Origin: Agrobacterium tumefaciens
GTDB lineage: Bacteria; Pseudomonadota; Alphaproteobacteria; Rhizobiales; Rhizobiaceae
Direction: 5' to 3'
Assembly: GCA_017744915.1 (NCBI GenBank)
Contig: JAGIAH010000001.1
Coordinates: forward strand, 186,001 to 250,000
DNA: 64,000 nt
This document shows, in pieces, positions 9,822 to 47,590 of this stretch (positions are counted from its first letter, which is position 1; every line of letters starts with the position of its first letter). The position numbers and the translations under genes are program-made. The notes beneath the pieces were generated by a model. It was not told the origin of the DNA. It ran no database searches and worked only from the letters and a program-made list of their open reading frames with translations.

Positions 9822-10268
<447 letters not shown>

Positions 10269-10300
10269 TCACAACGACGGCAGAGCGGAAGGGGTTCCGG

Positions 10301-30640: not shown

Positions 30641-33070
30641 TCAATCCGGCAGCGCATAGGCGATCACATAATCGCCACGGTCGGGAGACTGGCGTGCGCC
30701 GCCGGCCGAAATGACGACATATTGCTTGCCGGTCTTCGGAGACTTGTAGCTCATCGGGCCGCCCTGGCTACCGACCGGAAGACGCGCCTTCCAGACTTCC
30801 CTGCCGGTCGCCGTGTCGAAGGCGCGCAGATAATAATCCTGCGTGCCGGCGATGAAGACGAGACCGCCCTGAGTGGTGAGCGTGCCGCCAAGCGTCGGCA
30901 TGCCAATCGGGATCGGCAGGCCCATCTTGATGCCGAGCGGACCCGTATCCTCGACGGTGCCGACCGGCACCTGCCACTTGATCTTCTGGGTCTTCATGTC
31001 GATCGCGGTCATCGTACCATAGGGCGGAGCCTGGCAGGGAATGCCGAGAGCCGACAGGAAGCGGTTCTTGTCGACGGCATAGGGCGTGCCCTTCATCGGC
31101 ACGAGGCCCATGCCGGTATTGACGCTTTCGCCGCCGCTTGCCGTTGCCTTGGTGGGTGCGGCTTCCTTCATCTGGATCCAGAGGCCGAGACGCATGTCAT
31201 TGACGAAGATGGTGTTCGTCGTCGGGTCTGTCGAAAGGCCACCCCAGTTCATGCCGCCGAGCGAGCCGGGGAAGCTGAGCGAGACATCCGTGCCGGGTGC
31301 GGTATAGAGCCCTTCATAGCGCATGCCCTTGAAGGCAATGCGGCAAAGAAGCTGATCGAACGGGGTGGCGCCCCACATATCCGCCTCGGTCAACGTCTGC
31401 GCGCCGATTTCCGGCATGCCGACAGAACGTGGCTGGGTCGGCGAATAGGGTTCGTTCGGAATATTGGCCGGCTTGACCGGAACCTCTTCCACCTTGGTCA
31501 GCGGCTGGCCCGTGGCGCGGTCGAGGACATAGATCTGAGCCGCCTTGGTACCGAAGACCAACGCCGGAACGGTCGTTCCATCCGCCTTCGGGAAATCGAT
31601 GAAGCTCGGCTGCATCGGCACGTCGAAGTCCCAGAGGTCATTATGAACCGTCTGGTAGACCCATTTTTCCCGGCCTGTCGTGGCATCGAGTGCCAGCATC
31701 GAAGCGCCGTATTTATGGTCGAGCGGCGTGCGTGTCGCGCCATAGAGATCGACCGAGGGGCTGCCGACCGGCATGAAGACGGTGTTCAGCGCCGGATCGT
31801 AGGACATGGACGCCCACACATTCGGGGTGGAACGCGTGTATGTCTGCCCTTCGGGCGGCAGTCCGGTGATCTGCGGATTGCCGGGATCGAAGGCCCAGCG
31901 AAGCGCGCCCGTCACCACATCGAAACCGCGCATCACGCCGCCCGGCATATCCACCTGCACATTGTCGGCGATGCGGCCGCCGACCACAACGGTGGTGCCT
32001 GCGAGCGTGGGGGCCGAAGTCAGCACATATTGCGGGTCCGGCGCATTGCCGAGGCCAATCTTCAGATCGACACGGCCATTGGTGCCGAAATCCGGGCAAA
32101 ACGCGCCGGTGTCGGCATCGAGTGCGATCAGTTCGGCATTGATTGTATTCATCAGAATGCGGCGCTGGCAAAGCGCTCCGTCGGCCACCACCGCTGGTGT
32201 GACAGGCGTGGAGCCCGGCGCGGTCGGCTGCTTCAGCGGCGCCTTGGCATCAAAATAGGCAAGGCCGCGGCAACGCATCCAGACGGAGGATTTCGCGTTG
32301 ATTTCCGTCTTCCATTTTTCAGCACCGGTATCGGCATCGAGAGCGATGACATTGTTGTGCGGCGTGCACAGGAACACGGTGTCGCCCACCTGCAGCGGCG
32401 TTTCCTGATCTTCCGCGCCGTTCGCGCCGGGGCTGATCGGGGTGTCGCCAGTTCGATAGGTCCATGCGACTTCAAGGTTCTTGACGTTATCGCGGGTGAT
32501 TTCGTCCAGCGCGACAAAGCGGCTGCCGCCGGACGTATTGCCGTAATGTTCCCAGTTCTTCTGCTCGGTTTCCGGCTTGACCGGCGTCAGCGCCGCCGGT
32601 TCGCCACTAAAGGCGACGGTCGGATGCGGCACGAACATGCCGGCAAAACCGGCGCCGGAAGCGATGGCCAGAACGGCGGCAATGGCGAAGGACGTGCCGT
32701 AGGCAGGTGTTTTACCGGCTGCACGACGCAGCAGCGGATAAGACAGCGCCACGACCGTGGCGCCCACACCTATAGCAAGCAGGCGGGAAATCAGCGGCCA
32801 GAAGTGCAATCCGGCTTCCCAGACCGCCCAGACCCCGGAAAGGATGAAGATGAGACCAAAGAGAAGCGCGCCGGCCGGCTTGCGCAGCAGGATCAGCAGG
32901 CCGGAAACGATCAGCGCGATACCGGTCGTGACGAAATAGGGGCTGCCGCCCAGCGCAACGAGCTTCCCGCCGCCAATGGCGAAGAACAGGCCCGCAGCGA
33001 TGATGACCGCGCCAAGCACCAGCAGCCATAGTCTGGCTGGAAGCGACAGTGAAGTTGCAGAGTGACTCAT
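30641..33070 (-). CDS. gcd: Membrane-bound PQQ-dependent glucose dehydrogenase
   Basis: 809 residues, close to E. coli Gcd. Five membrane helices lie within residues 10-150, followed by a PQQ beta-propeller with GNTSGGSRFVALDEIT, WTYRTGD, HNDLWDFDVPMQPSF and GGLVFIAGTQDYYLRAFD. It oxidises glucose to gluconolactone on the periplasmic side and passes electrons to ubiquinone. No pqq genes are in the window, so cofactor synthesis must be encoded elsewhere or PQQ taken up. Divergent from a LysR gene, which may regulate it. Confidence 0.94.
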   Translation of the reverse strand: MSHSATSLSLPARLWLLVLGAVIIAAGLFFAIGGGKLVALGGSPYFVTTGIALIVSGLLILLRKPAGALLFGLIFILSGVWAVWEAGLHFWPLISRLLAIGVGATVVALSYPLLRRAAGKTPAYGTSFAIAAVLAIASGAGFAGMFVPHPTVAFSGEPAALTPVKPETEQKNWEHYGNTSGGSRFVALDEITRDNVKNLEVAWTYRTGDTPISPGANGAEDQETPLQVGDTVFLCTPHNNVIALDADTGAEKWKTEINAKSSVWMRCRGLAYFDAKAPLKQPTAPGSTPVTPAVVADGALCQRRILMNTINAELIALDADTGAFCPDFGTNGRVDLKIGLGNAPDPQYVLTSAPTLAGTTVVVGGRIADNVQVDMPGGVMRGFDVVTGALRWAFDPGNPQITGLPPEGQTYTRSTPNVWASMSYDPALNTVFMPVGSPSVDLYGATRTPLDHKYGASMLALDATTGREKWVYQTVHNDLWDFDVPMQPSFIDFPKADGTTVPALVFGTKAAQIYVLDRATGQPLTKVEEVPVKPANIPNEPYSPTQPRSVGMPEIGAQTLTEADMWGATPFDQLLCRIAFKGMRYEGLYTAPGTDVSLSFPGSLGGMNWGGLSTDPTTNTIFVNDMRLGLWIQMKEAAPTKATASGGESVNTGMGLVPMKGTPYAVDKNRFLSALGIPCQAPPYGTMTAIDMKTQKIKWQVPVGTVEDTGPLGIKMGLPIPIGMPTLGGTLTTQGGLVFIAGTQDYYLRAFDTATGREVWKARLPVGSQGGPMSYKSPKTGKQYVVISAGGARQSPDRGDYVIAYALPD

Positions 33071-33467
33071 GGAATGAATATCCGGTTAGGAGGGCCGCCG
33101 CAAAGGCTGATGCCCGATGATCGTTCAGTGTCCGGCAAAGCCGGGACAGCCAGCCGCAGCAGCGGCCAGGCGCGAACGCGATGAGGGCGGCGCGGCTGAA
33201 CGGGGAACAATAGTGGGGAAGACTTCCGTTGTGACTGTCATTTGACCCATTCACTGCAGATACCACCGGCCCGTTGGACGGCAGCCAAGATGCTTGAACA
33301 AATCCTCCCCGGCCCGGTCGCAACGCCCGTCTGTGGGCACGGAGCGTACCAAAACCCTGGCTGCGGTATAACGTCGCCTGCGACAAGATGACAATGCGCA
33401 AGACGGGCAATTTTGATAAGCTGAGCTTATACCACATCCGACCGACAACACAAAGACCCGTCCGCCG
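33071..33467. promoter_or_regulatory. Divergent gcd-lysR promoter region
   Basis: A 397-bp gene-free region between gcd and the LysR gene. The only clear element I see is the LTTR box at 33416-33430; no convincing small gene or terminator is present. The unusual length suggests long leaders or several regulator sites. Confidence 0.5.
33416..33430. promoter_or_regulatory. LysR-type binding box
   Basis: ATAAGCT-G-AGCTTAT is a perfect 7+7 palindrome containing the classic T-N11-A pattern (ATAAG-N5-CTTAT). It lies 37 bp upstream of the LysR gene start, the normal place for autoregulation. Confidence 0.8.
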
Positions 33468-34367
33468 ATGGATATTCGTCAACTTACAATCTTCGTGGAA
33501 GCCGCAAGGGCGAAAAACTTCCGTGCCGCCGCCCTTCAGCTCGGCATTGCCCAGCCCGCCGTTACCCAGCGCATCCGGCAACTAGAGGAAAATCTCGGCT
33601 TCAAGCTTTTTCAGCGCATCAATCGCGGTGTGGAACTTACCCAGGCGGGGCAATCCATGCTCATCGAGGCGGAGGAAATCCTCGCCCGCACCAAGGGCGC
33701 GCTGGAAAAGGCGCAGCAGATAAGGCGCGGCCAGCTCGGCACGCTGCGTATAGGATATGGCACCAGCGTGATGGCGGAACGCAAACTGCCAGCGCTGATC
33801 ACCCGCTACAGCGATGAAAACCGGGATGTGACGCTGGAGCTTCTGCCCGGCATGACGATGGAACAGCTGATCGAGCAGGTGGCGACACGCAAGACCGATG
33901 TGGCCTTCATTCGCGCACCGCTGCCGCTGCTGCCACAGACCTTGAGGGCCATGCCCTTCGACCGCTCGAAATTATGCGTCGCCGTGCCCGAGCAGCATGC
34001 GCTTGCCGCCCGCTCCCGGGTCCCGGTCAGCGATATCGTGCGGGAAAAACTGCTGCTGCCGGTTGACGAGATCGGCCTCGGCCTCAGCAGCAATGCGCTT
34101 TCGCTGTTCGAGGATGCCGGCTGCGAGCCGCAGATTGGCATGCGCATTGCCAACGTCAATACGATCCTTGCGCTTGTGGAAGCGGGTGCCGGAATTTCCA
34201 TCCTGCCAGAAAGCACGGTGCGCGCCACGCGGGGCATCACCGCCGTACCGCTGGAGAACGCGGACGCCTGGTCCGATTGCATGCTGGTCGTCCGGCGCGG
34301 CGCGCTCGCCCTCCATGTGGACGCCTTCGTGAATATGGCGCGGCAGGCCTATCGACCCCGCCTCTAA
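33468..34367 (+). CDS. LysR-family transcriptional regulator
   Basis: 299 residues. The N-terminal winged helix (FVEAARAKNFRAAALQLGIA, then QPAVTQRIRQLEENLG) is followed by the periplasmic-binding-like effector domain from about residue 90. It sits upstream of the malic enzyme gene on the same strand and divergent from gcd. Either could be its target, and an LTTR box precedes it. The effector cannot be read from the sequence. A compound in central carbon metabolism is a reasonable guess. Confidence 0.9.
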   Translation: MDIRQLTIFVEAARAKNFRAAALQLGIAQPAVTQRIRQLEENLGFKLFQRINRGVELTQAGQSMLIEAEEILARTKGALEKAQQIRRGQLGTLRIGYGTSVMAERKLPALITRYSDENRDVTLELLPGMTMEQLIEQVATRKTDVAFIRAPLPLLPQTLRAMPFDRSKLCVAVPEQHALAARSRVPVSDIVREKLLLPVDEIGLGLSSNALSLFEDAGCEPQIGMRIANVNTILALVEAGAGISILPESTVRATRGITAVPLENADAWSDCMLVVRRGALALHVDAFVNMARQAYRPRL

Positions 34368-34524
34368 CGTGAACCGAGAACTAATCGATTGAATCGGCCA
34401 CTAATTTCATCACGGCTCATTTTGCTGCACTGAACAACATTCAAGGCTTGGCAGGCGCGCGAAAAATACAATAACAACGACGGATATTTTTACACGATTA
34501 TCGACAGGAAAGCACACACAGCCC

Positions 34525-36813
34525 ATGTCCGACACGACCAAGCCCGCCAGCACCAGAACATCGGTTACGGATCAGGAAGCCCTGGATTTCCACGCGGACG
34601 GCAGACCCGGCAAACTGGAAATAACCCCGACCAAGCCGATGGCGACGCAGCGGGATCTGTCGCTCGCCTATTCGCCGGGCGTGGCCGTGCCGGTGAAAGC
34701 CATCGCCGAAAATCCGGCAAGTGCTTACGATTATACGACGCGCGGCAACATGGTTGCGGTCATCTCCAACGGCACCGCGATTCTTGGCCTCGGCAATCTC
34801 GGCGCGCTCGCCTCCAAGCCCGTCATGGAAGGCAAGTCAGTCCTCTTCAAGCGCTTTGCCGATGTCGATTCCATCGATCTTGAGGTCGATACCGAAGACG
34901 CGGATGAGTTCATCAATTGCGTGCGCTATCTCGGCCCCTCCTTCGGCGGCATCAATCTGGAAGACATCAAGGCGCCGGAATGTTTCATCATCGAAAGCCG
35001 CCTGCGCGAGCTGATGGACATTCCCGTTTTCCATGACGATCAGCACGGCACCGCCATCATCGCCGCAGCCGGCCTCATCAACGCCATCGAACTGACCGGC
35101 CGCGACTTCAAGACCACGAAGCTCGTCTGCAACGGCGCGGGCGCTGCGGCCATCGCCTGCATGGACCTCATCAAGGCCATGGGTTTCAACCCGGACAACA
35201 TTACACTCTGCGATACCAAGGGCGTGATCTATCAGGGCCGTACCGAAGGCATGAACCAGTGGAAATCCGCCCATGCGGTAAAAACCGACAACCGCACGCT
35301 GGCCGAAGCCATGAAGGGTGCGGACGTGGTGTTCGGCCTCTCCCAGAAGGGAGCCTTCACCGAAGAGATGATCCGCTCCATGGCAAAGAAGCCGATCATC
35401 TTCGCCATGGCCAATCCGGACCCGGAAATCACGCCGGAAGAAGTGTCGCGCGTCCGCGACGACGCCATCATGGCGACGGGCCGTTCGGACTATCCGAACC
35501 AGGTCAACAACGTCCTCGGCTTTCCCTATATCTTCCGCGGCGCGCTCGATGTCCGCGCCCGCCAGATCAACGACGCAATGAAGATCGCCGCCGCACAGGC
35601 GCTGGCCGATCTGGCTCGCGAGGATGTGCCTGACGATGTGGCTGCCGCCTATCAGGGCAACCGTCCGCGTTTCGGGCCGCAATATATCATTCCGGTTCCC
35701 TTCGATCCGCGCCTGATCTCGGCCATTCCGGTGGCAGTCGCCAAAGCCGCCATCGAAACCGGTGTCGCCCAGCGCGAATTGCCGGATCTCGACGCCTATG
35801 CCCGTGAACTTTCCGCCCGCCGCGATCCGATGGCTTCGACGACGCAGCGCCTTTACGAACGCGTGCGCCGCTCGCCGAAGCGCGTGGTCTTTGCCGAGGC
35901 GGAAGAGGAACAGGTCATGCGCGCGGCGATTTCGTTCACCGCGCAAGGCCTCGGCACCGCCATCCTGCTCGGCCGCGATGACATCATCAAGGCCAATGCG
36001 GAGCGCGCCGGCATCGATCTCGACCGCGCCAATATCGAGATCACCAATGCGCGCCTTTCCAGCCGCGTCGATGCCTATGTCGATTATCTTTATGCGCGCC
36101 TGCAGCGCGGCGGTTTCCTGCTGCGCGACGTGCAGCGCCTGGTCCACAACGACCGCAACCATTTCGCCGCCTGCATGGTCGCGATGGGCGATGCGGACGC
36201 CGTGGTCACGGGTGTGACCCGCAACTATTCGACCGCGCTGGAAGATATCCGCCGCTGCATCAACACCAAGCCCGGCCATCGCGTCATTGGCGTTTCGCTG
36301 GTCGTCTCGCGCAACCGAACCGTCTTTGTGGCCGATACCGCCGTGCATGACATGCCGAATGCGGAAGACCTTGCCGATATCGCCGAAGAAGCAGCCGGCC
36401 TCGCCCGTCGTTTCGGCTACGAGCCGCGTGTGGCCATGCTCGCCTATTCCACCTTCGGCCAGCCGGTCGGCGAACGCTCCGACAAGGTGCGCGAGGCGGT
36501 GAAAATCCTCGACAGGCGCAATGTCAATTTCGAGGTCGAAGGCGAAATGTCGGCTGATGTGGCGCTGAACCACCACCGCATGCAGAGCCAGTATCCCTTC
36601 GCCCGGCTTTCCGGCCCGGCCAATGTGCTGGTCATGCCCGCCATCCATTCCGCCTCGATCTCCACCAAGATGCTGCAGGAACTGGGTGGTGCCACCGTCA
36701 TCGGCCCGCTCCTCGTCGGCCTCGACAAATCCGTGCAGATCACCTCGATGGGCGCGAAGGACAGCGATATCGTTAATATGGCGGCGATCGCGGCCTATAA
36801 TGCCGGTCGCTGA
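34525..36813 (+). CDS. Malic enzyme with C-terminal phosphotransacetylase-like domain
   Basis: 762 residues, the length of rhizobial Dme/Tme. The malic enzyme half (about 1-440) has [29 protein letters not shown], the Rossmann [15 protein letters not shown] and [12 protein letters not shown]. The C-terminal half (about 440-760) is phosphotransacetylase-like (PTA_PTB), with [18 protein letters not shown] and [17 protein letters not shown]; in this family it usually modulates rather than catalyses. It converts malate to pyruvate and CO2 with NAD(P). NAD versus NADP use cannot be decided here with certainty. Confidence 0.9.
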
Positions 36814-36836
36814 GGCGGGCTGAACGTTACGGCGCT

Positions 36837-36863
36837 TTTCTTCTCCCCGCCGGGGAGAAGAAA
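36837..36863. other. Perfect 12-bp hairpin after malic enzyme
   Basis: TTTCTTCTCCCC pairs with GGGGAGAAGAAA around a GCC loop, 23 bp past the stop. No T tract follows, so termination is possible but not assured. Between it and 37092 lies AT-rich promoter sequence for the next gene. Confidence 0.65.
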
Positions 36864-37092
36864 CAAGCGGCATTCGATCGCTCCCCCACTGACCATCTGG
36901 CGCTTCTGTGGCCAGGGGCAAACAGCGGCGACAAAGAACAGGATTCTACGATTTCCTATTATTAGGATATTTTTTCGCCCCTGAGGCTTTATTGGAACGC
37001 GATTTTATTCATATTATTTTTTGCGCAATGCCAATTCTCGCTCTTGGCGGGTGCCTCATGTAGTTTCCACCTACACTCAAAAGGAAATACCC

Positions 37093-37932
37093 ATGGCCCT
37101 CTCTTTCTCCAGACTAGCCGCAAAACTCATCGCCGGAACCGTCGTCATCGCTTCGATGGCCACCGCCGCGCACGCGGATGCAACGCTCGACCGGATCAAG
37201 GGTCGCGGCAAGCTGACCGTCGGTGTCATCCTTTCCGGCGCGCCTTTCGGCTTCATCGATCCTAAGACGCAGGAGCAGAAGGGCCTCAACATCGACGTCG
37301 CCAAGGCGCTCGCCGCCGGCCTCGGTGTTGAACTCGTCACCGAGACGGTGACCCCGCCCAACCGCGTGCAGTTCCTGCAGCAGGGCAAGGTCGATATCCT
37401 CATCGCCAACATGCAATACACCGAAGAGCGCGCCAAAACGCTCGGCTACGTGCCGACCCCCTATGACCGCCAGGGTGGCGCTGCCATCGGCCGCAAGGAT
37501 TCGGGCATCAAGGACTGGCCGGATCTGAAGGGCAAGATCGCCTGCGTTTCGCAAGGCTCAAACTACACCCAACCGCTGATCGAGCAATATGGCGCCCAGG
37601 TGAAGGCCCTGCCGAGCCAGCCGGAATCGCTGCTGGCGCTGAAGGGCGGCAATTGTGACGTCTCCGTTCACGTCAACGGCACGTTGAGCCTGATGCTTCA
37701 GGACCGCGCCGACGAGTGGAAGGATTACGGCATCCTCATCCCCACCGACCTCATCCCGTCGGATTCCGTCATCTGGCTGCGCAAGGGCGAAAACGACACG
37801 CAGGCCGCCCTCGACAAGATCGTCAAGGAGCTGCACGCTTCCGGCAAGATGATCGAATTCGCCAAGGCCAACCGCCTGCCGAGCATCGGCTACATGGAAG
37901 AGCAGCAGAAGAAGCTTTCGGCCGCGCAATAA
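37093..37932 (+). CDS. Polar amino-acid-type ABC transporter substrate-binding protein
   Basis: 279 residues from the ATG at 37093, with AAGGAAA upstream; an in-frame start at 37021 is less likely. A signal peptide (about 1-27) ends ATAAHA-DAT. It is an SBP family 3 protein: RIKGRGKLTVGVILSGAPFG, GLNIDVAKALAAGLGV, FLQQGKVDILIANMQYTEER and KGKIACVSQGSNY. It resembles YxeM/FliY-type binders of cystine-like and other amino acids. First gene of a six-gene cluster ending in an FMN monooxygenase. Ligand inferred only. Confidence 0.88.
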   Translation: MALSFSRLAAKLIAGTVVIASMATAAHADATLDRIKGRGKLTVGVILSGAPFGFIDPKTQEQKGLNIDVAKALAAGLGVELVTETVTPPNRVQFLQQGKVDILIANMQYTEERAKTLGYVPTPYDRQGGAAIGRKDSGIKDWPDLKGKIACVSQGSNYTQPLIEQYGAQVKALPSQPESLLALKGGNCDVSVHVNGTLSLMLQDRADEWKDYGILIPTDLIPSDSVIWLRKGENDTQAALDKIVKELHASGKMIEFAKANRLPSIGYMEEQQKKLSAAQ

Positions 37933-37948
37933 GAGACTGGGCAGTTCC

Positions 37949-38061
37949 GGTCACTCCGAGCTTGATCCGGGGTCCAGCGCGATCAAGCGCCTGATCGAAA
38001 AAGGTCGTTCACGGCGCGGAGACGTCGTGGCTGGATGCCGTGATCTAAGTCCGGCATGACG
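37949..38061. repeat. Degenerate palindromic intergenic repeat
   Basis: The left arm (TCACTCCGAGCTTGATCCGG) and the reverse complement of the right arm (TCATGCCGGACTTAGATCA) are related, giving a 113-bp inverted element. It resembles the element after thuB in the window and common alphaproteobacterial intergenic palindromes. Confidence 0.6.
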
Positions 38062-38101
38062 CAGGGGCGTCTGCCATCAAGGCGTTTTACCCCAACCCCA
38101 G

Positions 38102-38131
38102 AGAACGGCTGGTTTCGCCCGCCGTTCTTTT
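38102..38131 (+). terminator. Terminator inside the amino-acid ABC operon
   Basis: AGAACGGC (38102-38109) pairs with GCCGTTCT (38121-38128), followed by TTTTC. A second perfect hairpin, GTGCCGCC-gccg-GGCGGCAC, lies at 38161-38180, 23 bp before the permease start. They probably make the binding protein more abundant than the membrane parts. Confidence 0.75.
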
Positions 38132-38203
38132 CTGCTTTATAGCAAGACAGGCCATTTCTGGTGCCGCCGCCGGGCGGCACCGCGACAACAGCATGGATTT
38201 CCA

Positions 38204-38947
38204 ATGCAGGATGCATTTATAGCGCGCTTCATAGAACTGGCCGCGCATATCGGCCTCAACTATGACTTTCTGAACAGCGGCTACGAGGTTCAGATCTGGC
38301 TCGATGGCATGAAGATGACGCTCATTCTCATTGCCGTCACCTTGCCGCTCAGCCTTGTCTTCGGCTTCATTTTCGCGGCCATGCTCACCTCCGGCAAGAC
38401 CTGGCTCGCCGGCCCGGTGCGCGCCTATGTGGAACTCACGCGCAACACGCCGACGCTGGTGCAGCTGATGTGCGGTTTCCTCGTACTCAACATGCTGATT
38501 TCCAATGCGCTGGGCGGTGCGCAAAACAATCCGCTGACCCCGTTCTTCTGGGTCGTCGCCATCACCGGCCTGCATGTTGCCGCCTTCCACGCGGAAGCGT
38601 TGCGCGGCGGTATCGAGGCGGTACCGGCCACCACCATCGAGGCGGCGCGCGCGATCGGTTTCAGTTCGTTCGAAATCCTGCGTTATGTGGAGTTTCCGCT
38701 GGCGATCCGCACGGCGCTGCCATCCATCATCAACAATCTCGTCAATCTGGTGAAGCTCACCACGGTCGGCTCGGCCATTGCGGTGGGTGAAATCACCTAT
38801 GCCTCGATCCTGATCTGGACGCAGCGCGACAATGTGGTCGAGCTGATGATCGTCATCCTCATCTTCTTCAGCGTCATCAATTTCATCGTCGCAAGGGTCG
38901 GTCTCTGGCTTGAACGGCGTCTCGCAGTTCCGGGGTTCGGTCAATGA
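38204..38947 (+). CDS. Polar amino-acid ABC transporter permease
   Basis: 247 residues. HisM/GlnP-type permease with about five helices and the family motif AYVELTRNTPTLVQLMCGF (about 66-84). The EAA loop reads ATTIEAARAIGFSSFEILRY. The last codons overlap the next permease start (ATGA). Part of a two-permease transporter with the downstream genes. Confidence 0.9.
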   Translation: MQDAFIARFIELAAHIGLNYDFLNSGYEVQIWLDGMKMTLILIAVTLPLSLVFGFIFAAMLTSGKTWLAGPVRAYVELTRNTPTLVQLMCGFLVLNMLISNALGGAQNNPLTPFFWVVAITGLHVAAFHAEALRGGIEAVPATTIEAARAIGFSSFEILRYVEFPLAIRTALPSIINNLVNLVKLTTVGSAIAVGEITYASILIWTQRDNVVELMIVILIFFSVINFIVARVGLWLERRLAVPGFGQ

Positions 38948-39726
38948 GCGCGGTGGTTTCTCCAACACAGGTGGCGAAGAAGCCGCCGTTCGGTACCATT
39001 CTGCTGCTCGGTGTGCTGATTGCCGTCGTCCTGTGGCTGATCCTCGATCCCTCGCTCGGGCAGGTGCTGCTGCAATGGCTGCCCTATCTCGGCAAGGGTT
39101 TTGCCATGAATGTGCTGATCAGCGTTCTGGCGATCGCCATCGGTACCTTCATCGGCGTCCTTCTCGGCATCATGGAGCTTGCGCCCTATCGCCTGGTGCG
39201 TGCGCCGGCGCTGACCTATGTGCAGGTTTTCCGCAATGCCCCGCATCTGGTGCTGATTTTTGCCGCGACCTACATCTTCCCCTTCGAGATCGTCGCCTTC
39301 GGCAATTACATTCCCTTCCCGGACTGGATCAAGGCCGTCGTCGGTCTCGCCATTCCGGCGAGCGCCCACATCGCGGAAATCACCCGTGGCGCCATCCAGT
39401 CCATTCCGACTGCGCAATGGGAAGCGGCACAGGGGCTGGGCTTTTCGCGTAACCAGACGCTGCGCTGGATCATCCTGCCGCAATGCGTGAAACGTTCGCT
39501 GCCGCCATGGATGAACCTTTACGCATCGATCACCATGGGCACGGCGCTTGCCTCGCTGGTCGGCGTGCATGAGCTTCTGCATGCCGCCACGGACGCCAGC
39601 ACCGCCGTGCAACGCAACGATTTCACCGTCGTGGTCTATCTCACCGTGCTGATGGCGTTCTTCCTGTTCTGCTATCCCGTCTCCCGTTTCACGCAGCGCC
39701 TCGAGCGGCGCTTCGCCTCCCGCTGA
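38944..39726 (+). CDS. Polar amino-acid ABC transporter permease
   Basis: 260 residues, starting inside the stop codon of the first permease. It has the motif APALTYVQVFRNAPHLVLIF and the EAA loop TAQWEAAQGLGFSRNQTLRW. About five helices. It forms a heterodimeric channel with the 247-residue protein. The ATPase gene follows 12 bp later. Confidence 0.9.
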   Translation: MSAVVSPTQVAKKPPFGTILLLGVLIAVVLWLILDPSLGQVLLQWLPYLGKGFAMNVLISVLAIAIGTFIGVLLGIMELAPYRLVRAPALTYVQVFRNAPHLVLIFAATYIFPFEIVAFGNYIPFPDWIKAVVGLAIPASAHIAEITRGAIQSIPTAQWEAAQGLGFSRNQTLRWIILPQCVKRSLPPWMNLYASITMGTALASLVGVHELLHAATDASTAVQRNDFTVVVYLTVLMAFFLFCYPVSRFTQRLERRFASR

Positions 39727-39738
39727 TTGGAACAAGCC

Positions 39739-40554
39739 ATGTCCGCATCCGCACCACAAACCGCCGCCAACGCCCCTGCCGCCACAGCATTGGTCGAACT
39801 GGAGGGCATACACTTGTCCTTCGGCGACAATCAGGTTCTCAAGGGCATCGATCTGACCGTCAACAAGGGTGACGCCGTTTCCATCATCGGCCCTTCCGGC
39901 TCGGGCAAGTCCACGATCCTGCGCTGCATCAACGGCCTGCTCATTCCGCAATCGGGCAAGATCACCGTCGGTGGCACCCGGGTCGACCAATTGAAGACCG
40001 AGGCTGAGCGCATCGCGCTGCGCAAGCGCATCGGCATCGTCTTCCAGCAGTTCAACCTCTTCCCTCATCTGACGGTGATGGAAAACATCACCATTGCGCC
40101 GATCAAGATTCTCGGTACGCCAAAGGCGCAAGCCGAGCGTCATGCACGCGAATTGCTGGAAAAAGTGCGTCTTTCCCAGAAGGTCGATGCCTATCCCGGC
40201 CAGCTTTCCGGCGGTCAACAGCAGCGTGTCGCCATTGCCCGAGCACTCGCCATGCGGCCGGAGCTGGTGCTGTTCGATGAAGTGACTTCAGCTCTCGACC
40301 CGGAAACGGTCGGCGAAGTGCTCGCCGTCATCCGCGATCTCGTCAATGACGGCATGACCAGCATTCTCGTCACCCACGAAATGCGCTTCGCCGAGGAAAT
40401 CAGCGACAAGATCGTCTTTACCGAAAACGGCCTGATCGTCGATCAGGGCACGCCCGACCACATTTTCTACAAGTCGACCAATCCGCGCATCAATGCCTTC
40501 GTCAAGGGTCTCGGCGGACAGGTGGCGCGGGTGACCGATGGCGAAGGAATTTGA
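39739..40554 (+). CDS. Polar amino-acid ABC transporter ATPase
   Basis: 271 residues from the ATG at 39739; a TTG four codons earlier is also open. A 24-residue Ala-rich N-terminal tail precedes the GlnQ-type domain with Walker A GPSGSGKST, signature LSGGQQQR, Walker B LVLFDEVTSALDPE and H-loop LVTHEMRFAEEI. It drives import of the ligand bound by the 37093 protein. Confidence 0.92.
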   Translation: MSASAPQTAANAPAATALVELEGIHLSFGDNQVLKGIDLTVNKGDAVSIIGPSGSGKSTILRCINGLLIPQSGKITVGGTRVDQLKTEAERIALRKRIGIVFQQFNLFPHLTVMENITIAPIKILGTPKAQAERHARELLEKVRLSQKVDAYPGQLSGGQQQRVAIARALAMRPELVLFDEVTSALDPETVGEVLAVIRDLVNDGMTSILVTHEMRFAEEISDKIVFTENGLIVDQGTPDHIFYKSTNPRINAFVKGLGGQVARVTDGEGI

Positions 40555-40558
40555 TGCC

Positions 40559-41905
40559 ATGACCGCCGATGAGAAACTCACCCTGCATCTGGCCGAAGCC
40601 ATCGCCGCCTCCGATCCGCTGCGTGACGAAGAGGCAGTCAGAATCGCCCGCACGGCGCTGATCGATTTTTTCGCCTGTGTATTGGGCGGCGCTGCCGACA
40701 GAAGCACGAAAATCCTGATCGACAGCTTTACTCCCGGTACATCCGGCACGGCGGGCATCATCGGCCACGATCTGCGCACCGATGCCTTTACCGCCGCCCT
40801 CATCAACGGCCATGCCGGCCATGTGCTGGATTATGATGATGTCCATGGCAGCGTGCGTGGCCACCCCACCGTCGCCATCATTCCCGCGCTGCTGACTGTT
40901 GCGGTCGAGGCAGGTTCGACGGCGGATGCCTTCATTGCCGCCTACATCGTCGGGCTGGAGACCATGGCGCGTCTCGGCCTGTCGCTCGGCACCAAGCACT
41001 ACGAAAACGGCTTCCACGCCACCGCCACGCTCGGCCCGATCGGCGCTGCGGCGGCCATCGCCCATCTTCTGAAGTTCGATCCGCAGACCACGGCCGTGGC
41101 TCTTGGCCTTGCCGCCACACAATCGGCCGGACTTCGCCTGCAATTCGGCTACGATGCCAAGCCGCTGCATGCCGGGCTCGCCACACGCGCCGGCCTCACC
41201 GCCGCGCGGCTGGCGCGCGCCGGTTTTCAGGGTGCCCCGGATTTTCTGGAAAACCCCATCGGCTTTTATTCCGCCTTCGCCTTCGGCGCCGAGCAGCCGA
41301 AACGGGTTCTCTCCGGCTGGGGCGCGCCCTGGCAGATCGTTTCGCCCGGCCTCACCCTCAAGGCTTTTCCCTGCTGCACCGCCGCCCATCCCGTCGCCGT
41401 CGGCGCACTGGCGCTGCGCAGCGGACATGAGCTGACGCCCGACGAAATCGAAACGGTTGTCATCACCTTCCCACCGGGGGGCGATGCCGCCCTTGTCGGG
41501 CCGGCCACGCCCACGACCGGCATCGATGCACGTTTCAGCCCTGAATATATCTTTGCCGCCGCCTTGGCGGACGGAGCGCTTGGTATCGGCCATTTCGACG
41601 AGCGCCCGACACGCGCCGACCTGCTTGCCCTTTCCGCAAAAGTCTCGCGTCGCCATGACGAGACGGCGCGCCGCCTCTCACCCGATCCGACCACCCGTTT
41701 TGTGGTCATCGATGTGACGAAGAAGGATGGCACGGTGCTCTCGCGCCGTATCGACGGCCTGCCGGGCATCGATGACCCGACGGAAAAATTCGCCGACGCC
41801 ACCGGCAGCAATGAAAAATTCGCCGGAATTCCGGCACTGGTGCGGAGCATGAAGACCGTAGCCGACCTCAGGAAGCTCGAAACGCTTCTGGTATCGCAAA
41901 TATAA
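40559..41905 (+). CDS. MmgE/PrpD-family protein (YxeQ-like)
   Basis: 448 residues. The start at 40559 lies 4 bp past the ATPase stop with AAGGA upstream; an alternative at 40538 would overlap the ATPase gene. It is an all-helical MmgE/PrpD fold with ALIDFFACVLGG, the family hallmark NGHAGHVLDYDDVHG (about 83-97), HPTVAIIPALL and FPCCTAAHPVA. PrpD dehydrates 2-methylcitrate, but many members have other or unknown substrates. Here it sits between an amino-acid transporter and an FMN monooxygenase, as YxeQ does in Bacillus. The reaction is not known. Confidence 0.88.
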   Translation: MTADEKLTLHLAEAIAASDPLRDEEAVRIARTALIDFFACVLGGAADRSTKILIDSFTPGTSGTAGIIGHDLRTDAFTAALINGHAGHVLDYDDVHGSVRGHPTVAIIPALLTVAVEAGSTADAFIAAYIVGLETMARLGLSLGTKHYENGFHATATLGPIGAAAAIAHLLKFDPQTTAVALGLAATQSAGLRLQFGYDAKPLHAGLATRAGLTAARLARAGFQGAPDFLENPIGFYSAFAFGAEQPKRVLSGWGAPWQIVSPGLTLKAFPCCTAAHPVAVGALALRSGHELTPDEIETVVITFPPGGDAALVGPATPTTGIDARFSPEYIFAAALADGALGIGHFDERPTRADLLALSAKVSRRHDETARRLSPDPTTRFVVIDVTKKDGTVLSRRIDGLPGIDDPTEKFADATGSNEKFAGIPALVRSMKTVADLRKLETLLVSQI

Positions 41906-41931
41906 CTCGACCGACATGAAGGCATGACCCC

Positions 41932-43242
41932 ATGACCACTACGACCCGCAAAAGACAGATGCATCTCGGCCTTTTCCTCCAAGGCGCCGGACACCACGTT
42001 TCCGGCTGGCGTCACCCCGATGCGGAAGCCGGCAGCGAGAATTTCGACCTCTTGACCCGTGTTACGAAAATGGCGGAATCTGCGAAGTTCGACATGGTGT
42101 TTCTGGCCGACGGCCTGACCAGCGGCGTCGACGCCCATCCCTCGATGATCGCCCGCTTCGAACCGCTGACCCTGCTTGCCGCACTTGCCATGGTGACCGA
42201 CAGGATCGGCCTGGCCGCCACCGCCTCCACCACCTATGGCGAGCCCTACCATACCGCCCGTGCCTTTGCGTCCATCGATCATCTGAGCCACGGCCGCGCC
42301 GCCTGGAACATCGTCACCACCTCCTATGCCCGCACGGCGGCCAATTTCTCCAAGGACCATCCCGAGCATGACGAGCGTTATGCGGTGGCGGAAGAATATG
42401 TGAATGTCGTTCGCGGCCTGTGGGACAGCTGGGATGACGACGCCTTCGTCAAGGACAAGCAGGCGGGCCGTTACGTCGATCCGGAAAAGGTCCATATTCT
42501 CAACCACGAGGGCAAATATTTCACGGTCAAGGGACCGCTCAACATTCCGCGTTCGCCGCAGGGTCACCCGGTTCTCATTCAGGCCGGTTCCTCCGGACCG
42601 GGGCAGGACCTTGCTGCCCGCACCGCCGATATCGTCTTCACCGCCCAGCAGGCGATTTCCGAAGCACAGGCCTTCTATACCAGCCTCAAGGCGCGGGTGG
42701 CGAAATTCGGCCGCGATCCGGCCAGCGTTGCCGTCATGCCCGGCTTCATGCCGATCATCGGCCGTAGCTTCGAGGAGGCCGGTGAAAAGCTGAAGGAACT
42801 GAACCGCTGGACGGACATCAAGAGCGCCATGCCGCTGCTTGAAGAACGCATCGGCCACAGCCTGGCCGACTATGATCTCGACGGCCCGCTGCCCGACCTG
42901 CCGATCTCCGACCAGCTGCGCAGCCGCGCCGAACTTCTGACCGAACTCGCACGCCGCGAAAAACTGACGATCCGCGAACTGGCGCTGCGCGTTGCCGCGG
43001 GCCGCGGCCACCATATCGTCATGGGCACGGCCAAGGAGGTGGCGGACCGGATGCAGGATTGGTTCGAAAACGGCGCGGCCGACGGCTTCAACGTCATGCC
43101 GCCCTTCTTCCCCGGCGGGCTGGAGGAATTCAACCGCGAAGTCGTGCCGCTTCTGCAGGAGCGCGGCCTGTTCCGCAGGGAATACGAAGGGTCTACGCTG
43201 CGCGAGCATCTCGGTATCGCAAGACCGGCCCTGCGGGGATAG
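41932..43242 (+). CDS. FMN-dependent monooxygenase, NtaA/SnaA/DszA family (YxeK-like)
   Basis: 436 residues. A bacterial-luciferase-like TIM barrel of the NtaA/DszA branch: MHLGLFLQGAGHHVSGWRHP (about 10-29), KFDMVFLADGL, HLSHGRAAWNIVTTS and HPVLIQAGSSGPGQDLAA (phosphate/FMN-binding part). Members use reduced flavin to cleave C-N or C-S bonds in chelators, sulfur compounds and S-succinocysteine derivatives. The GxGHHVxxWRHP start matches Bacillus YxeK. A separate flavin reductase is needed and is not seen here. Last gene of the cluster. Confidence 0.88.
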   Translation: MTTTTRKRQMHLGLFLQGAGHHVSGWRHPDAEAGSENFDLLTRVTKMAESAKFDMVFLADGLTSGVDAHPSMIARFEPLTLLAALAMVTDRIGLAATASTTYGEPYHTARAFASIDHLSHGRAAWNIVTTSYARTAANFSKDHPEHDERYAVAEEYVNVVRGLWDSWDDDAFVKDKQAGRYVDPEKVHILNHEGKYFTVKGPLNIPRSPQGHPVLIQAGSSGPGQDLAARTADIVFTAQQAISEAQAFYTSLKARVAKFGRDPASVAVMPGFMPIIGRSFEEAGEKLKELNRWTDIKSAMPLLEERIGHSLADYDLDGPLPDLPISDQLRSRAELLTELARREKLTIRELALRVAAGRGHHIVMGTAKEVADRMQDWFENGAADGFNVMPPFFPGGLEEFNREVVPLLQERGLFRREYEGSTLREHLGIARPALRG

Positions 43243-43274
43243 GCAAGAGCTTCCCCGGCCTGCGCGTTTACAGC

Positions 43275-44075
43275 CTATGGGTTGGGTCCATGCGCGCCGG
43301 CCGTGGAAAACCAGATGTCGGGGAATATAGCGACAGCCGTATCATCGGGCGCTTGATCCGCTGTCAGGCGAAGCGAGCGGATGGCTCGCGTTTCGGACAT
43401 GCTGGGCGCTCTCGCGCAGAGGCGCGCATCCGATGCGCCGATACAGGGAATAAACCGCACCGGCATCAAAGGCCGCGCAATGAAAGCGGATTGCTCGCGC
43501 GTCACCAGCATAGCGACGCCGATGCCCTCGGCAGGCTGCCATGGAAAAATCATCCGGCCACCCGGTTTGAGCGCCTGTAGCCACGCCACGGGCGGCACAA
43601 CGACGCCGGCATTGACGTAAATCAGATCGGATGCCGGAAGAGGCAGCAGGGTTGCATCACCCTGCGTCAGAAAAACACCTTCGAAAGGCTTGAGGTTTTC
43701 CTGTGCCCGTCTGGCAAGGCTTTCCTCAATCTCAAAAGCGTGAACGCTGCCGCCCGGCAATGCCAACAGCGACAGGATTGCCGTATAATAACCCGTCCCC
43801 GCACCGATATGGGATATGGTATCACCAGCTTTCGGGCAGGCGGCACCGATCCAGCTCGCATGCAGCAGGGGCTCCCCGTTGTTGATATCCTTACTGGCAT
43901 CAAGGGCTACAAGCACGTTCTGATAGATATGGACAGGGTTGGCGCTCGGGGTTTCGATATAACGGCGGTTCACCCTGATCTTCCATGGTCCCGGTCCAAG
44001 AAATATCTCACGCGGGACCAGTTCGAAGATCCGTTCAAGCCTCTCATCCGTGGAGTTGCTGGCCGCCGCCATCAT
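43275..44075 (-). CDS. Protein-L-isoaspartate O-methyltransferase-like SAM methyltransferase
   Basis: 266 residues from the ATG at 44075. It shows the PIMT-like N-terminus VPREIFLGPGPW, substrate-loop QNVLVALD, SAM-binding ISHIGAGTGYYTAILSLLAL and VHAFEIEESLA. The C-terminal 80 residues are variable. Conserved residues DDVRAFHAR appear in frame upstream of the first ATG, but no standard start codon is available before the in-frame stop at 44139-44141. The true start may be a rare codon (CTG 44105 or ATT). Convergent with the monooxygenase gene, 32 bp apart. Substrate unknown. Confidence 0.75.
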   Translation of the reverse strand: MMAAASNSTDERLERIFELVPREIFLGPGPWKIRVNRRYIETPSANPVHIYQNVLVALDASKDINNGEPLLHASWIGAACPKAGDTISHIGAGTGYYTAILSLLALPGGSVHAFEIEESLARRAQENLKPFEGVFLTQGDATLLPLPASDLIYVNAGVVVPPVAWLQALKPGGRMIFPWQPAEGIGVAMLVTREQSAFIARPLMPVRFIPCIGASDARLCARAPSMSETRAIRSLRLTADQAPDDTAVAIFPDIWFSTAGAHGPNP

Positions 44076-44205
44076 TCTGGCGTGAAAGGCACGAACATCA
44101 TCCAGATTGGAACGAAACGGGGGAATCGCAATCTCCCTTCATCCTCAGTCGCGGCATTTTCGATTGAAACGATATTTTGCGCGGTGACTGTGGCAACGTT
44201 TTGAA

Positions 44206-44237
44206 GTGGGGGCGTCAACACCTTTAAGCCCCCCCAC
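44206..44237. other. G/C-tract hairpin between methyltransferase and chemoreceptor genes
   Basis: GTGGGGGC (44206-44213) faces GCCCCCCCAC (44228-44237), an 8-bp stem with slippage in the C run. A second hairpin GGGCGCGC/GCGCGCCC at 44283-44308 lies just past the chemoreceptor stop and probably ends that minus-strand transcript. Confidence 0.5.
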
Positions 44238-44316
44238 CGCCTATATAACCAGATTTCAAACCCTATCGACCATGGGATTGCAGGGCGCGCACGATCTCCG
44301 GCGCGCCCGCTTTCTC

Positions 44317-46053
44317 CTACGCCGCAGAGCGCTGGGGAATAGTATCTGCGCCGTTCCGCTCCGAAACCGTCCTTGCGGTGGATGATCCGTCTTCGCGCTG
44401 CACCGTGCGGCGGTTCAGCTTGAACAGGCTGACAAGCTGCGCCAATGCATCGGCGCCCTGCGCCAGCGTGGTGCTGATAACCGTGGTGCGGGCGCTCATT
44501 GCCGCGTTCTCCTGCGTCATCCGGTCCAGCCGGTTGACCGCCTTGTTGATCTCGCTGATGCCGACCGCCTGTTCATCCGCCGCCTTGGCGATCATGTCGA
44601 CATTGCCGTCAATATGCCTGACCAGCGCATCGATCTGCTTCAACGCCTCGCCGGTCTCGCCCACCAGCCTGACGCCTTCCAGAACCTCGGTGCCGGAATT
44701 GTTGATCAGCGCCTTGATTTCCTTGGCGGCATTGGCGGAACGCTGTGCCAGCTCGCGCACTTCCTGCGCCACCACGGCAAAGCCCTTGCCGGCTTCGCCC
44801 GCACGAGCGGCTTCCACGCCGGCATTCAGCGCCAGCAGGTTGGTCTGGAAGGCGATTTCATCGATCACGCCAATGATCTGACTGATTTCCCGCGATGCCG
44901 TCTCGATACGCTGCATGGCATCGACCGTGCGCTCAACGACTTCGGTGGAAGCCACGGTGGACGTCCGCGCGCTCTGGACGAGTTTGCGCGTCTCTTTCAT
45001 GTTTTCAGTCGACGAACGAACGGTCGAGGTGATTTCTTCAAGTGCTGCCGAGGTTTCCTCAAGCGCTACCGCCTGCTCGCGAGAACGTTCGGCGAGATTG
45101 ACGGAAGCTTCGCTGACTTCTTGGCTGCTGCGGGTCAGATCACCGGTCTGGCCGAGAACATTCTCCAACGTCTTCTGGAATTCGGCGATGGACTTGTTGA
45201 AATCGCGCCGCAGCCTTTCGAACTCGCCGACGAACGGCTTGTCCAGCGTAACGCGGATATTGCATTGCGAAAGCCGCTCGAGCGCCGCACCAAGTTCCTC
45301 GACCGCATGCACCCGGTCCGTCACGTCGAAAGCGAATTTCACCACCTTGAAGACGCGGCCCCGGTCATCGATGATCGGATTGTAGGAGGCCTGAATGAAA
45401 ACGCGGCGGCCTTCCTTGCCAAGCCGCATGAACTGTCCGGTGGAAAAGCGGCCCATGCGAAGCTCTTCCCAGAAATTCCGGTAATCCTGCGACTGGGTAT
45501 AGGCCGGCTCGCAGAATATCGAATGATGTTTGCCGATGATTTCTTCCGCCGTGTAACCCAGCGTCGCGAGGAAATTTTCGTTGGCGCCGAGGATTTTTCC
45601 GTCTGGCGTAAATTCAATCATGGCCTGCGCCCGGGAAAGTGCGGCCAGCTTGCCATCATCCTCGGCACTCTTGCGCTTCATCGCGGTGATATCGGTGGCA
45701 ATCTTGACCACCTTGTAGGGCTTGCCGAAACGGAACACCGGGTTGTAGGAGGCTTCGATCCAGATTTCATCGCCATTTTTGGCCAGGCGCCGGTACTGAC
45801 CCTGATCATATTCGCCGCGCGACAGCTTCGCCCAGAAGGTCTTGTATTCAGGCGAGGAGGCATCTTCGGCAGACAGGAACATGCTGTGGGAGCGCCCAAC
45901 GATTTCAGACTGCTGATAACCGACGGCCTTGCAGAAATTATCGTTCGCTTTCAAAATCTTGCCGGTCAGGTCGAACTCGATGATAGCCTGCGAACGGCTG
46001 AGCGCATCAAGCACCGAAGAAGCGTCCAGACCAAATTTGGAAAAGTGAGACAT
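44317..46053 (-). CDS. Soluble double-PAS chemoreceptor (Aer/McpB-like)
   Basis: 578 residues with no membrane helix or signal peptide. Two PAS domains (about 12-125 and 135-247) share NDNFCKAVGYQQSEIVG/NENFLATLGYTAEEIIG and IEASYNPVF/IQASYNPII motifs. A short HAMP-like linker leads to the MCP signalling domain with the hairpin tip IDEIAFQTNLLALNAGVEAA and GFAVVAQEVRELAQRSA (about 398-438). Such cytoplasmic receptors sense redox or energy state through heme or flavin; the cofactor is not evident. The C-terminus (TIPQRSAA) has no CheR pentapeptide. Confidence 0.92.
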   Translation of the reverse strand: MSHFSKFGLDASSVLDALSRSQAIIEFDLTGKILKANDNFCKAVGYQQSEIVGRSHSMFLSAEDASSPEYKTFWAKLSRGEYDQGQYRRLAKNGDEIWIEASYNPVFRFGKPYKVVKIATDITAMKRKSAEDDGKLAALSRAQAMIEFTPDGKILGANENFLATLGYTAEEIIGKHHSIFCEPAYTQSQDYRNFWEELRMGRFSTGQFMRLGKEGRRVFIQASYNPIIDDRGRVFKVVKFAFDVTDRVHAVEELGAALERLSQCNIRVTLDKPFVGEFERLRRDFNKSIAEFQKTLENVLGQTGDLTRSSQEVSEASVNLAERSREQAVALEETSAALEEITSTVRSSTENMKETRKLVQSARTSTVASTEVVERTVDAMQRIETASREISQIIGVIDEIAFQTNLLALNAGVEAARAGEAGKGFAVVAQEVRELAQRSANAAKEIKALINNSGTEVLEGVRLVGETGEALKQIDALVRHIDGNVDMIAKAADEQAVGISEINKAVNRLDRMTQENAAMSARTTVISTTLAQGADALAQLVSLFKLNRRTVQREDGSSTARTVSERNGADTIPQRSAA

Positions 46054-46336: not shown

Positions 46337-47590
46337 ATGACCAAAACCCTGAAATGCGATGTGCTGGTGATCGGCACCGGCATTATCGGTTCCATGGCGG
46401 CGCTTTATCTGCAGAATGCCGGACGCGAGGTGGTGCTTCTGGAACGTGGCGAGGTTGCCCGCGGCGCCAGCTCCGGCAATGCAGGCATATTGGCCTTTCC
46501 GGAAATCATTCCCATTCCATCGCCCGGCATCATGAAAAAAGCGCCGCGCTGGCTGTTCGATCCGCTCGGCCCGCTCAGCGTGCCGCCTGCCTATGCGGCG
46601 AAGATCGCGCCCTGGCTGTGGCGTTTCTGGCGCGCCAGCGCCGAACGCAGCTTTCGTCACGGGCTGAAATCCCTTACTGACATCAACCGGCTGGCGGCCG
46701 CGGAAATGGCCCATGTCGCCGCCATGCCGGAACTTTCATCCTTCGTTTTGAAAACCGGCACGCTCGATCTTTACGACAGCGAGGCAAGCCTCAATGCCGC
46801 CCGCAAGGATTGGGACGAAAAGGAAAGCGCCGGCTATTCCTTCGAACGCATCGGCCGCAACGAAATCGAGGAGCTGCAACCGGGTCTCGCGCCGCAGTTC
46901 CGCCACGCCGTGTTTTCGCCGAACGGCCTGCAGGTCTCCGATCCCTACGATTTCACCCGTGCCATCTTCGATCTGGTGCTCGCCCGTGGCGCCAGCCTGC
47001 GCAAGGGTGAGGCCGAACGCATCGACGCCGTCGGCGAAAGCACGATCGTGACGCTGGAAAACGGCGACAAGATCGACGCCGACAAAGTGGTGATCGCCGG
47101 CGGCGCGTGGTCGAAAAAGCTTGCCGCGACGCTTGGCAACATCGTGCCGCTGGAGACCGAACGCGGCTACAACACCACCCTGCCCGCCAACGCCTTCAAC
47201 CTGACGCGCCAGCTTTATTTCAACGACCATGGCTTCGTCGTCACCCCGCTATCGACGGGCATTCGTGTTGGCGGCGCCGTCGAACTCGGCGGGCTCGAAC
47301 TGAAACCGAATTTCCGCCGAGCAGAGGCCATGTTGAAGAAGGCGGGACGTTTCCTGCCCGGTATCAAGCTGGAAGGCGGACGGCAATGGATGGGCTTCCG
47401 TCCGTCCATGCCGGACTGTCTTCCCGTCATCGGCACGGCCCGCGCCACGCCCTCCGTCATCTATGCCTTCGGCCACGGCCATCTGGGGCTGACACAATCG
47501 GCAGCGACAGCCCGTCTCGTCACGCAGTTAGCCAGTGGCGAGGAGACGGCAATTTCGGTCGACCCCTTCCGTCCGGGGCGCTTTTCCTGA
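46337..47590 (+). CDS. DadA-like FAD-dependent D-amino-acid dehydrogenase
   Basis: 417 residues, with AGGAG before the ATG. The FAD-binding motif DVLVIGTGIIGSMAALYLQN (about 6-25) and GASSGNAGILAFPEIIPIPS are typical of DadA-type DAO-family enzymes. The C-terminal GHGHLGLTQSAATARLV closes the flavin site. It probably oxidises D-amino acids to keto acids, feeding electrons to the respiratory chain. No racemase gene is adjacent. The 283-bp upstream region is shared with the divergent chemoreceptor. Confidence 0.88.
   Translation: MTKTLKCDVLVIGTGIIGSMAALYLQNAGREVVLLERGEVARGASSGNAGILAFPEIIPIPSPGIMKKAPRWLFDPLGPLSVPPAYAAKIAPWLWRFWRASAERSFRHGLKSLTDINRLAAAEMAHVAAMPELSSFVLKTGTLDLYDSEASLNAARKDWDEKESAGYSFERIGRNEIEELQPGLAPQFRHAVFSPNGLQVSDPYDFTRAIFDLVLARGASLRKGEAERIDAVGESTIVTLENGDKIDADKVVIAGGAWSKKLAATLGNIVPLETERGYNTTLPANAFNLTRQLYFNDHGFVVTPLSTGIRVGGAVELGGLELKPNFRRAEAMLKKAGRFLPGIKLEGGRQWMGFRPSMPDCLPVIGTARATPSVIYAFGHGHLGLTQSAATARLVTQLASGEETAISVDPFRPGRFS

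Follow-up and report, generated by a model that had tools for sequence, protein, structure and literature searches.

A six-gene Agrobacterium tumefaciens operon with a YxeK-like monooxygenase, and a possible epimerase role for its YxeQ-family partner

What does a six-gene cluster of Agrobacterium tumefaciens import and degrade, and what does its MmgE/PrpD protein contribute? The cluster occupies positions 37093-43242 on the + strand of the window, by which we mean the whole 64 kb stretch analysed (G000:C11:186001-250000 of a 4.94 Mb genome). A sequence-only reading of this DNA had described an importer followed without a break by an MmgE/PrpD protein and an NtaA/DszA-type flavin mononucleotide (FMN) monooxygenase, and had likened the set to the Bacillus yxe locus, by which cysteine is regained from cysteine that fumarate has succinated. 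All six genes are present and match the expected families. We put the chances at about even that this operon imports and degrades an S-(2-succino) thioether (2-succinocysteine, 2SC, or a close relative) and so recovers sulfur, with the PrpD protein epimerising the compound before it is cleaved. The six genes and the putative active-site codons are as follows (aa, amino acids; ABC, ATP-binding cassette).

37093..37932, + strand: family-3 (polar amino-acid type) periplasmic binding protein, 279 aa (SBP_bac_3, PF00497, 86.8 bits)
38204..38947, + strand: ABC permease 1, 247 aa (BPD_transp_1, PF00528), kept in 46/47 loci of the survey below
38944..39726, + strand: ABC permease 2, 260 aa (BPD_transp_1, PF00528)
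39727..40554, + strand: ABC ATPase, 275 aa from a TTG at 39727 (ABC_tran, PF00005), with an alternative ATG at 39739
40538..41905, + strand: MmgE/PrpD protein of the YxeQ family, 455 aa (MmgE_PrpD_N+C), a proposed S-(2-succino)-thioether epimerase
Within the MmgE/PrpD gene, + strand: codons of His109 (40862) and Tyr155 (41000), the putative catalytic pair, and of Arg107 (40856)
41932..43242, + strand: NtaA/DmoA-family FMN-dependent luciferase-like monooxygenase (LLM), 436 aa (Bac_luciferase, TIGR03860), with a proposed role in C-S cleavage

The last five genes are tightly packed: the permease genes overlap by 4 bases, the ATPase open reading frame (ORF) directly follows permease 2, the PrpD gene overlaps the ATPase gene, and the LLM gene starts 26 bases past PrpD. 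The description "without a break" passes over the sole real gap, of 271 bases, which separates the binding protein from permease 1. The LLM scored 574 bits against the TIGR03860 (NtaA/DmoA) cut-off of 279.7, one of six proteins of the genome above it, and the PrpD protein scored 185 bits to PF03972 and 77.7 bits to PF19305 (cut-off 32.1 each), the only PF03972 match in the genome at E<=0.001. Query sequences for YxeL, YxeP, the S-(2-succino) lyase (2SL) and flavin reductase gave no match anywhere in the window at E<=1e-3, which bears out the earlier remark that acetyltransferase, deacetylase and reductase are missing here.

The conservation of this arrangement was assessed in one scan of 84,980 species genomes, using an alignment of the stretch from PDB 7bra and ten alphaproteobacterial PrpD proteins. 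The scan yielded 362 relatives. Analysis covered the 80 best loci (47 alphaproteobacterial and 33 from Firmicutes), every one of them fetched by its YxeQ-type sequence. A cleaving enzyme lay close to the YxeQ-family gene in all 80: YxeK in 20 Firmicute loci, 2SL in the other 13, and a window-type LLM in the 47 alphaproteobacterial ones. The same six genes, in identical order and strand, were found in 46 of these 47, so the arrangement is not due to chance, and an absence of neighbourhood conservation, which the sequence-only reading had named as a ground for refutation, was not seen. The single exception is L044, in which the LLM precedes a PrpD of 48% identity. A YxeL match was detected in 32 of the 33 Firmicute loci (all but L036, on a 5 kb contig) and a YxeP match in 29, and the 47 alphaproteobacterial loci contained no YxeL or 2SL match and one YxeP-like match, which in L067 belongs to a separate Cmo-type cluster also holding a GNAT. 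Across 20 loci, 83 of the 226 flank ORFs were selected for a family scan, and none of the 25 families listed for them (of 28) was a GNAT. Nor did a conserved seventh gene emerge from the listed and partly scanned neighbours of 14 loci (15 alphaproteobacterial stretches plus L077).

With two query sequences, a flavin reductase was found near the LLM in only two of the 80 loci; in these (L074:12683-13216 and L078:12767-13297, from Brucella/Ochrobactrum) its gene directly follows the LLM and completes a two-component system. In Phyllobacterium sp. OV277 an Asp/Glu/hydantoin racemase gene stands directly upstream of the binding protein (L062:5751-6530). The cluster is rare: among 397 genomes sampled from the order, four had a PrpD match at E<=1e-100, and among 385 sampled from the class, two had one, the window's own genome being included in each count, and in the three other genomes of the order draw permease 2, the ATPase and the LLM adjoin PrpD. 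Of 28 short background PrpD loci, none matched the queries for lyase, LLM, GNAT or reductase, and one had an ATPase. The 102 loci of Hillmann 2022 may already include alphaproteobacterial ones of the present kind.

The partnership of one PrpD-family protein with two unrelated cleaving enzymes is what led us to a role for it. The window PrpD shares 39% identity with YxeQ, and a tree of 51 of 112 sequences, built by a quick method without bootstrap and rooted on mouse IRG1, placed it inside a 35-row YxeQ-family clade (Shimodaira-Hasegawa-like approximate likelihood ratio test, 96) that excludes iminodisuccinate (IDS) epimerase, IRG1 and 14 other MmgE/PrpD proteins. The comparison with YxeQ that had been called for thus came out in its favour. 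Mouse IRG1 falls outside this split and carries Ile at the position of the Tyr, and a grouping of the window PrpD with IRG1 was not found.

The structure published as B. subtilis IRG1 (7bra/7e9d) is taken to be that of YxeQ, not of a demonstrated cis-aconitate decarboxylase. Locus L011, from Bacillus spizizenii, holds seven genes that read as yxeK-L-M-N-O-P-Q, and the identification was made because the last of them (9989-11326) has the 445 residues of the 7bra chain and 92% identity with it over 400 compared. In the literature, 7bra is presented as cis-aconitate decarboxylase (PMC7347537), "B. subtilis IRG1" is said to have no evidence of enzymatic activity and a function called undetermined (PMC12290011), and YxeQ is listed as of unknown function (PMC9706529).

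YxeK releases oxaloacetate and 2SL releases fumarate (PMC9706529), so that the two reactions share only their substrate and the thiol product, and a partner common to both should act on the shared substrate, before cleavage. Chemically, this substrate belongs to the 2-substituted succinates, and compounds of that class are epimerised by IDS epimerase and by methylsuccinate isomerase. MmgE/PrpD substrates are described as sharing a 1,4-dicarboxylate, and the isomerase, a member of the family, is proposed to use the same His/Tyr chemistry (PMC12290011). The catalytic pair of IDS epimerase, His99/Tyr145 (PMC7347537), corresponds to His109/Tyr155 of the window PrpD and is kept in 35/35 YxeQ-family rows. 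Additionally, Arg107 is present in all 35 rows and in IDS epimerase, and in none of 14 background rows, and the model of the window PrpD had its lowest root-mean-square deviation (2.0) and highest TM score (0.89-0.90) to IDS epimerase, amongst VIA and Foldseek lists that contain family members only, so that absence from them does not exclude other folds.

The addition of fumarate to thiols occurs at either face. Half of the resulting damage would therefore be wrong-handed for a stereospecific enzyme, the stereospecificity of YxeK and 2SL being assumed here. By analogy with these two enzymes, we propose that YxeQ and the window PrpD act on S-(2-succino) thioethers, epimerising them at the succinyl carbon. 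In the pathway that would follow, the ABC importer would take up a dicarboxylic thioether; the PrpD/YxeQ protein would then epimerise the C2 stereocentre of the succinyl group by a His/Tyr two-base mechanism, because succination yields both epimers while the cleaving enzyme should accept one; and the YxeK-type LLM, supplied with FMNH2 by a reductase encoded elsewhere, would oxygenate the succinyl carbon to give oxaloacetate and the thiol. This role for YxeQ was not found stated in the searched open-access literature, which lacked Niehaus 2018, the work that reportedly found the pathway. The same literature gave nothing relevant linking "2-succino" with "epimer", no mention of YxeK together with Rhizobi and, in the part examined, no occurrence of ScmQ. 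Plant root exudates were considered as a source of the substrate and dropped, as the compound in the paper concerned is N6-(1,2-dicarboxyethyl)-AMP, which is no thioether.

The window LLM shares 54% identity over 437 columns with YxeK of B. spizizenii, which stood in for the B. subtilis protein, and the corresponding proteins of 47/47 alphaproteobacterial loci share 52-58%. When YxeK was compared with the six family members of the window's genome, the window LLM was best at 502 bits, followed by 443, 429, 419, 256 and 254 bits. The window LLM itself scored 390 bits to its best chain, 381 to YtnJ and 246 to EmoA. The closest LLM on record, 97% identical, is named as from Agrobacterium tumefaciens, and proteins of 85-88% identity already carry the name "N-acetyl-S-(2-succino)cysteine monooxygenase" in some databases and "nitrilotriacetate monooxygenase family" in others.

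In a 44-row tree, a split with support 91/95 put DszA and the DmoA group opposite YxeK, the CmoJ type and the window clade. A grouping with dibenzothiophene enzymes, which would have counted against the YxeK comparison, was thus not seen for DszA, and one with nitrilotriacetate enzymes was likewise not seen, in trees that contained neither NtaA nor EmoA and with the EmoA score given above set against 390 bits for the best chain. As the 44-row tree had long branches, seven long-branch and seven window-clade rows were dropped; the resulting 30-row tree, rooted on DszA by choice, supported three groups: the six YxeK rows, the 13 rows of the window clade, and the six of the CmoJ type, YtnJ and 3sdo among them.

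Conserved positions were compared at 90% conservation in 20 YxeK, 49 window-clade and six CmoJ-type rows. YxeK and the window clade have 31 positions in common that are present in at most one of the six CmoJ-type rows, against 16 common to YxeK and at least five CmoJ-type rows and 8 common to the window clade and at least five CmoJ-type rows, although the cut-offs differ between these lists and some of the 31 are common in outside rows, so that not all are derived. Of the 31, His21, His69, His107 and Arg332 are found in 49/49 window-clade and 20/20 YxeK rows and in none of the six CmoJ-type rows.

Several observations weigh against this reading. The branching order of YxeK, the window clade and the CmoJ/YtnJ clade is not separated by the tree: enforcing YxeK with the window clade cost 0.80 log units (approximately unbiased test, AU, p 0.39) and enforcing YxeK with the CmoJ type cost 1.18 (AU p 0.32). 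Since all loci were fetched by a YxeQ-type sequence, their linkage is uninformative about YxeK or 2SL loci without YxeQ. The His and Tyr are also kept in 14/14 and 13/14 background MmgE/PrpD rows, so the pair does not single out epimerases, and in both Z and sequence the window PrpD is closest to 7bra, a chain whose own activity is unknown. By sequence, the importer is of a different subfamily and is not orthologous to YxeMNO; its binding protein shares 26% identity over 167 residues with YxeM and its ATPase 46% with YxeO. This binding protein represents a separate subfamily, for which sequences of 45 loci with >=60% identity were aligned; of ten Firmicute genomes, nine had no relative of it at E<=1e-20 and the tenth had a single one, 34% identical. 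Because the LLM tree does not separate the three clades and the transporter subfamily differs, 2SC itself is no more than a candidate substrate. Lastly, YxeK reportedly needs an acetylated substrate, yet the cluster has no acetyltransferase: B. subtilis YxeK is described as inactive on unacetylated 2SC, and acetylation as crucial in all cases described (PMC12757645).

The last point opens the first alternative, to which we give a minor share of the probability: the canonical 2SC route, with a GNAT and an M20 deacetylase acting in trans and the operon providing import, epimerisation and cleavage. Some 75 kb distant, on the contig that also carries the operon (G000:C11, about 303-310 kb), the genome holds a Cmo-type cluster with a GNAT, an M20 hydrolase, a CmoJ-type LLM, a second LLM and a flavin reductase, and in total it contains eight YxeP matches (the last one weak) and eight flavin-reductase matches; moreover, all clusters reviewed in PMC12757645 use acetylation. 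The route thus either does without acetylation or borrows it, and the earlier suggestion of a shortened route holds for the cluster itself, while the Cmo-type cluster could supply the steps in trans. The wider region, at about 303-336 kb of G000:C11, holds many luciferase-like monooxygenases and M20 hydrolases besides the flavin reductase and the GNAT cluster, and is probably a sulfur-scavenging region.

Against such borrowing, an alignment of 12 YxeL proteins searched in 46 alphaproteobacterial host genomes (all but that of L044) gave three strong matches (158-164 bits), one weak match (59 bits, with an internal stop) and, in the other 42 genomes, no match above 28 bits, although an unrelated GNAT could serve. 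The three control genomes scored 263-297 bits, but their YxeL proteins are rows of the query alignment and show only that the search runs; that the strong matches are about 42% identical to YxeL over most of the length of YxeL indicates that it reaches distant members. A single-query search without a control found no YxeL in the window's genome. The three YxeL-like GNATs (G389:C1:899447, G392:C3:597697 and G424:C89:39213, from two Rhizobium genomes and one Phyllobacterium genome) were not adopted as serving this operon; they adjoin family-5 (oligopeptide-type) binding proteins, and in G389 and G424 CmoJ-type LLMs are nearby.

Residues of the LLM would also speak against an acetylated substrate. 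Gln110 and Glu132 of YxeK, two of the 16 positions above and present in 20/20 YxeK and 6/6 CmoJ-type rows, are Ala in 47/49 and 48/49 window-clade rows, which in 49/49 cases also carry Ala in place of Ser67 and Gly in place of Ser102. In an acetylation-free branch the LLM would have kept the positions peculiar to YxeK and lost side chains common to the two N-acetyl-dependent clades. That N-acetylation is skipped in this way, and that the YxeQ family is at the same time a new MmgE/PrpD activity, an S-(2-succino)-thioether epimerase, is a joint proposal which we advance tentatively and regard as rather less probable than the outline of the pathway itself.

A second alternative, of similarly limited probability, retains epimerisation by PrpD and changes the substrate to another amino-acid-like compound, such as an N-succino compound (iminodisuccinate) or the S-succino adduct of another thiol. 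The divergent transporter subfamily would suit it, as would Arg134, which adjoins a WN(I/V)VT motif and occurs in 48/49 window-clade and 0/20 YxeK rows, and relatives of the LLM such as NtaA and EmoA are enzymes that cleave C-N bonds. Locus L077, on a contig of Brucella sp. 21LCYQ03, has another MmgE/PrpD gene near the operon and, after it, an argininosuccinate-lyase-type gene cut short by the end of the contig (L077:16361-18967). This pair stands behind a permease, an ATPase and a binding protein, and looks like an iminodisuccinate-type pathway, for which such a pairing is expected. The window LLM, however, is much closer to YxeK and CmoJ, which are C-S enzymes, than to EmoA.

It is improbable that YxeQ/PrpD is instead a lyase or dehydratase eliminating the thiol from one epimer, a role for which the presence of 2-methylcitrate dehydratase in the same family, acting on a similar backbone (PMC12290011), may be cited. 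Equally doubtful is a CmoJ-type S-alkylcysteine salvage operon unrelated to succinate, since, even if the tree allows other orders among the three clades, the cluster has no match to YxeL, YxeP or (83 flank ORFs scanned) GNAT, is always accompanied by a YxeQ-family protein, and shares 31 positions with YxeK and not CmoJ against 8 with CmoJ and not YxeK, on six CmoJ rows and differing cut-offs.

The surroundings of the operon were also surveyed. A malic enzyme with a phosphotransacetylase domain lies upstream (34525-36813), a protein-isoaspartate-methyltransferase-like gene on the - strand (43275-44075) converges on the operon end, and a D-amino-acid-dehydrogenase-like gene lies 3 kb downstream (46337-47590); ORFs of equal length (762 and 417 aa) also flank the cluster in L085, L087 and L089. 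An Rfam scan of 33000-44500 returned nothing at E<=0.5, and scans found one promoter site (shuffle mean 2.0) and three terminators (5.9 in shuffles), on which no regulatory claim is based.

Diabetes, obesity and some cancers have been linked to the damage that fumarate does to thiols by succination (PMC9706529). If true, the epimerase role would account for the pairing of YxeQ with either of two unrelated cleaving enzymes and would make both products of non-enzymatic succination degradable, and it is directly testable on proteins already made, including the H102A mutant (7e9d). An acetylation-free route, if true, would break the rule of acetylation, breakdown and deacetylation given in PMC12757645 for all cases known to it. 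Of the results, a role for YxeQ that can be put to the test is the most useful.

Set beside known systems, the comparison with Bacillus yxeKLMNOPQ (scm) was right in kind: a YxeK-type LLM, a YxeQ-family PrpD and a polar amino-acid type ABC importer occur together in both. The window cluster differs in having no YxeL or YxeP, two permeases where Bacillus yxe has one, a binding protein of another subfamily and a different gene order, with the transporter first and PrpD and LLM last. Under the definition of a yxe/scm locus as at least three of K, L, MNO, P and Q clustered (PMC9706529), it offers a YxeK homologue above 50% identity and a YxeQ homologue, and lacks orthologous YxeMNO, YxeL and YxeP. 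The 2SL-type yxe loci of Trichococcus, Paenibacillus and Acidaminococcaceae likewise place a YxeQ-family protein beside an S-(2-succino)-cleaving enzyme, but with a lyase in place of the monooxygenase and a YxeL match in 12 of 13; such loci are also described in Enterococcus italicus and Dickeya dadantii (PMC9706529). IDS epimerase (PDB 2hp0/2hp3) shares 31% identity with the window PrpD over the structural alignment, lies outside the YxeQ clade and acts on a C-N compound, whereas the substrate proposed here is C-S. The (S)-(R)-methylsuccinate isomerase, likened by description, shares the MmgE/PrpD family and the proposed two-base chemistry and, unlike the window PrpD, sits in an itaconate/methylsuccinate cluster with CoA-ester enzymes (PMC12290011). 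Finally, the CmoJ/YtnJ S-alkylcysteine monooxygenases belong to the same LLM subfamily as the window enzyme (381 bits to YtnJ), but have other partner genes and differ from it at the 31 positions that it shares with YxeK.

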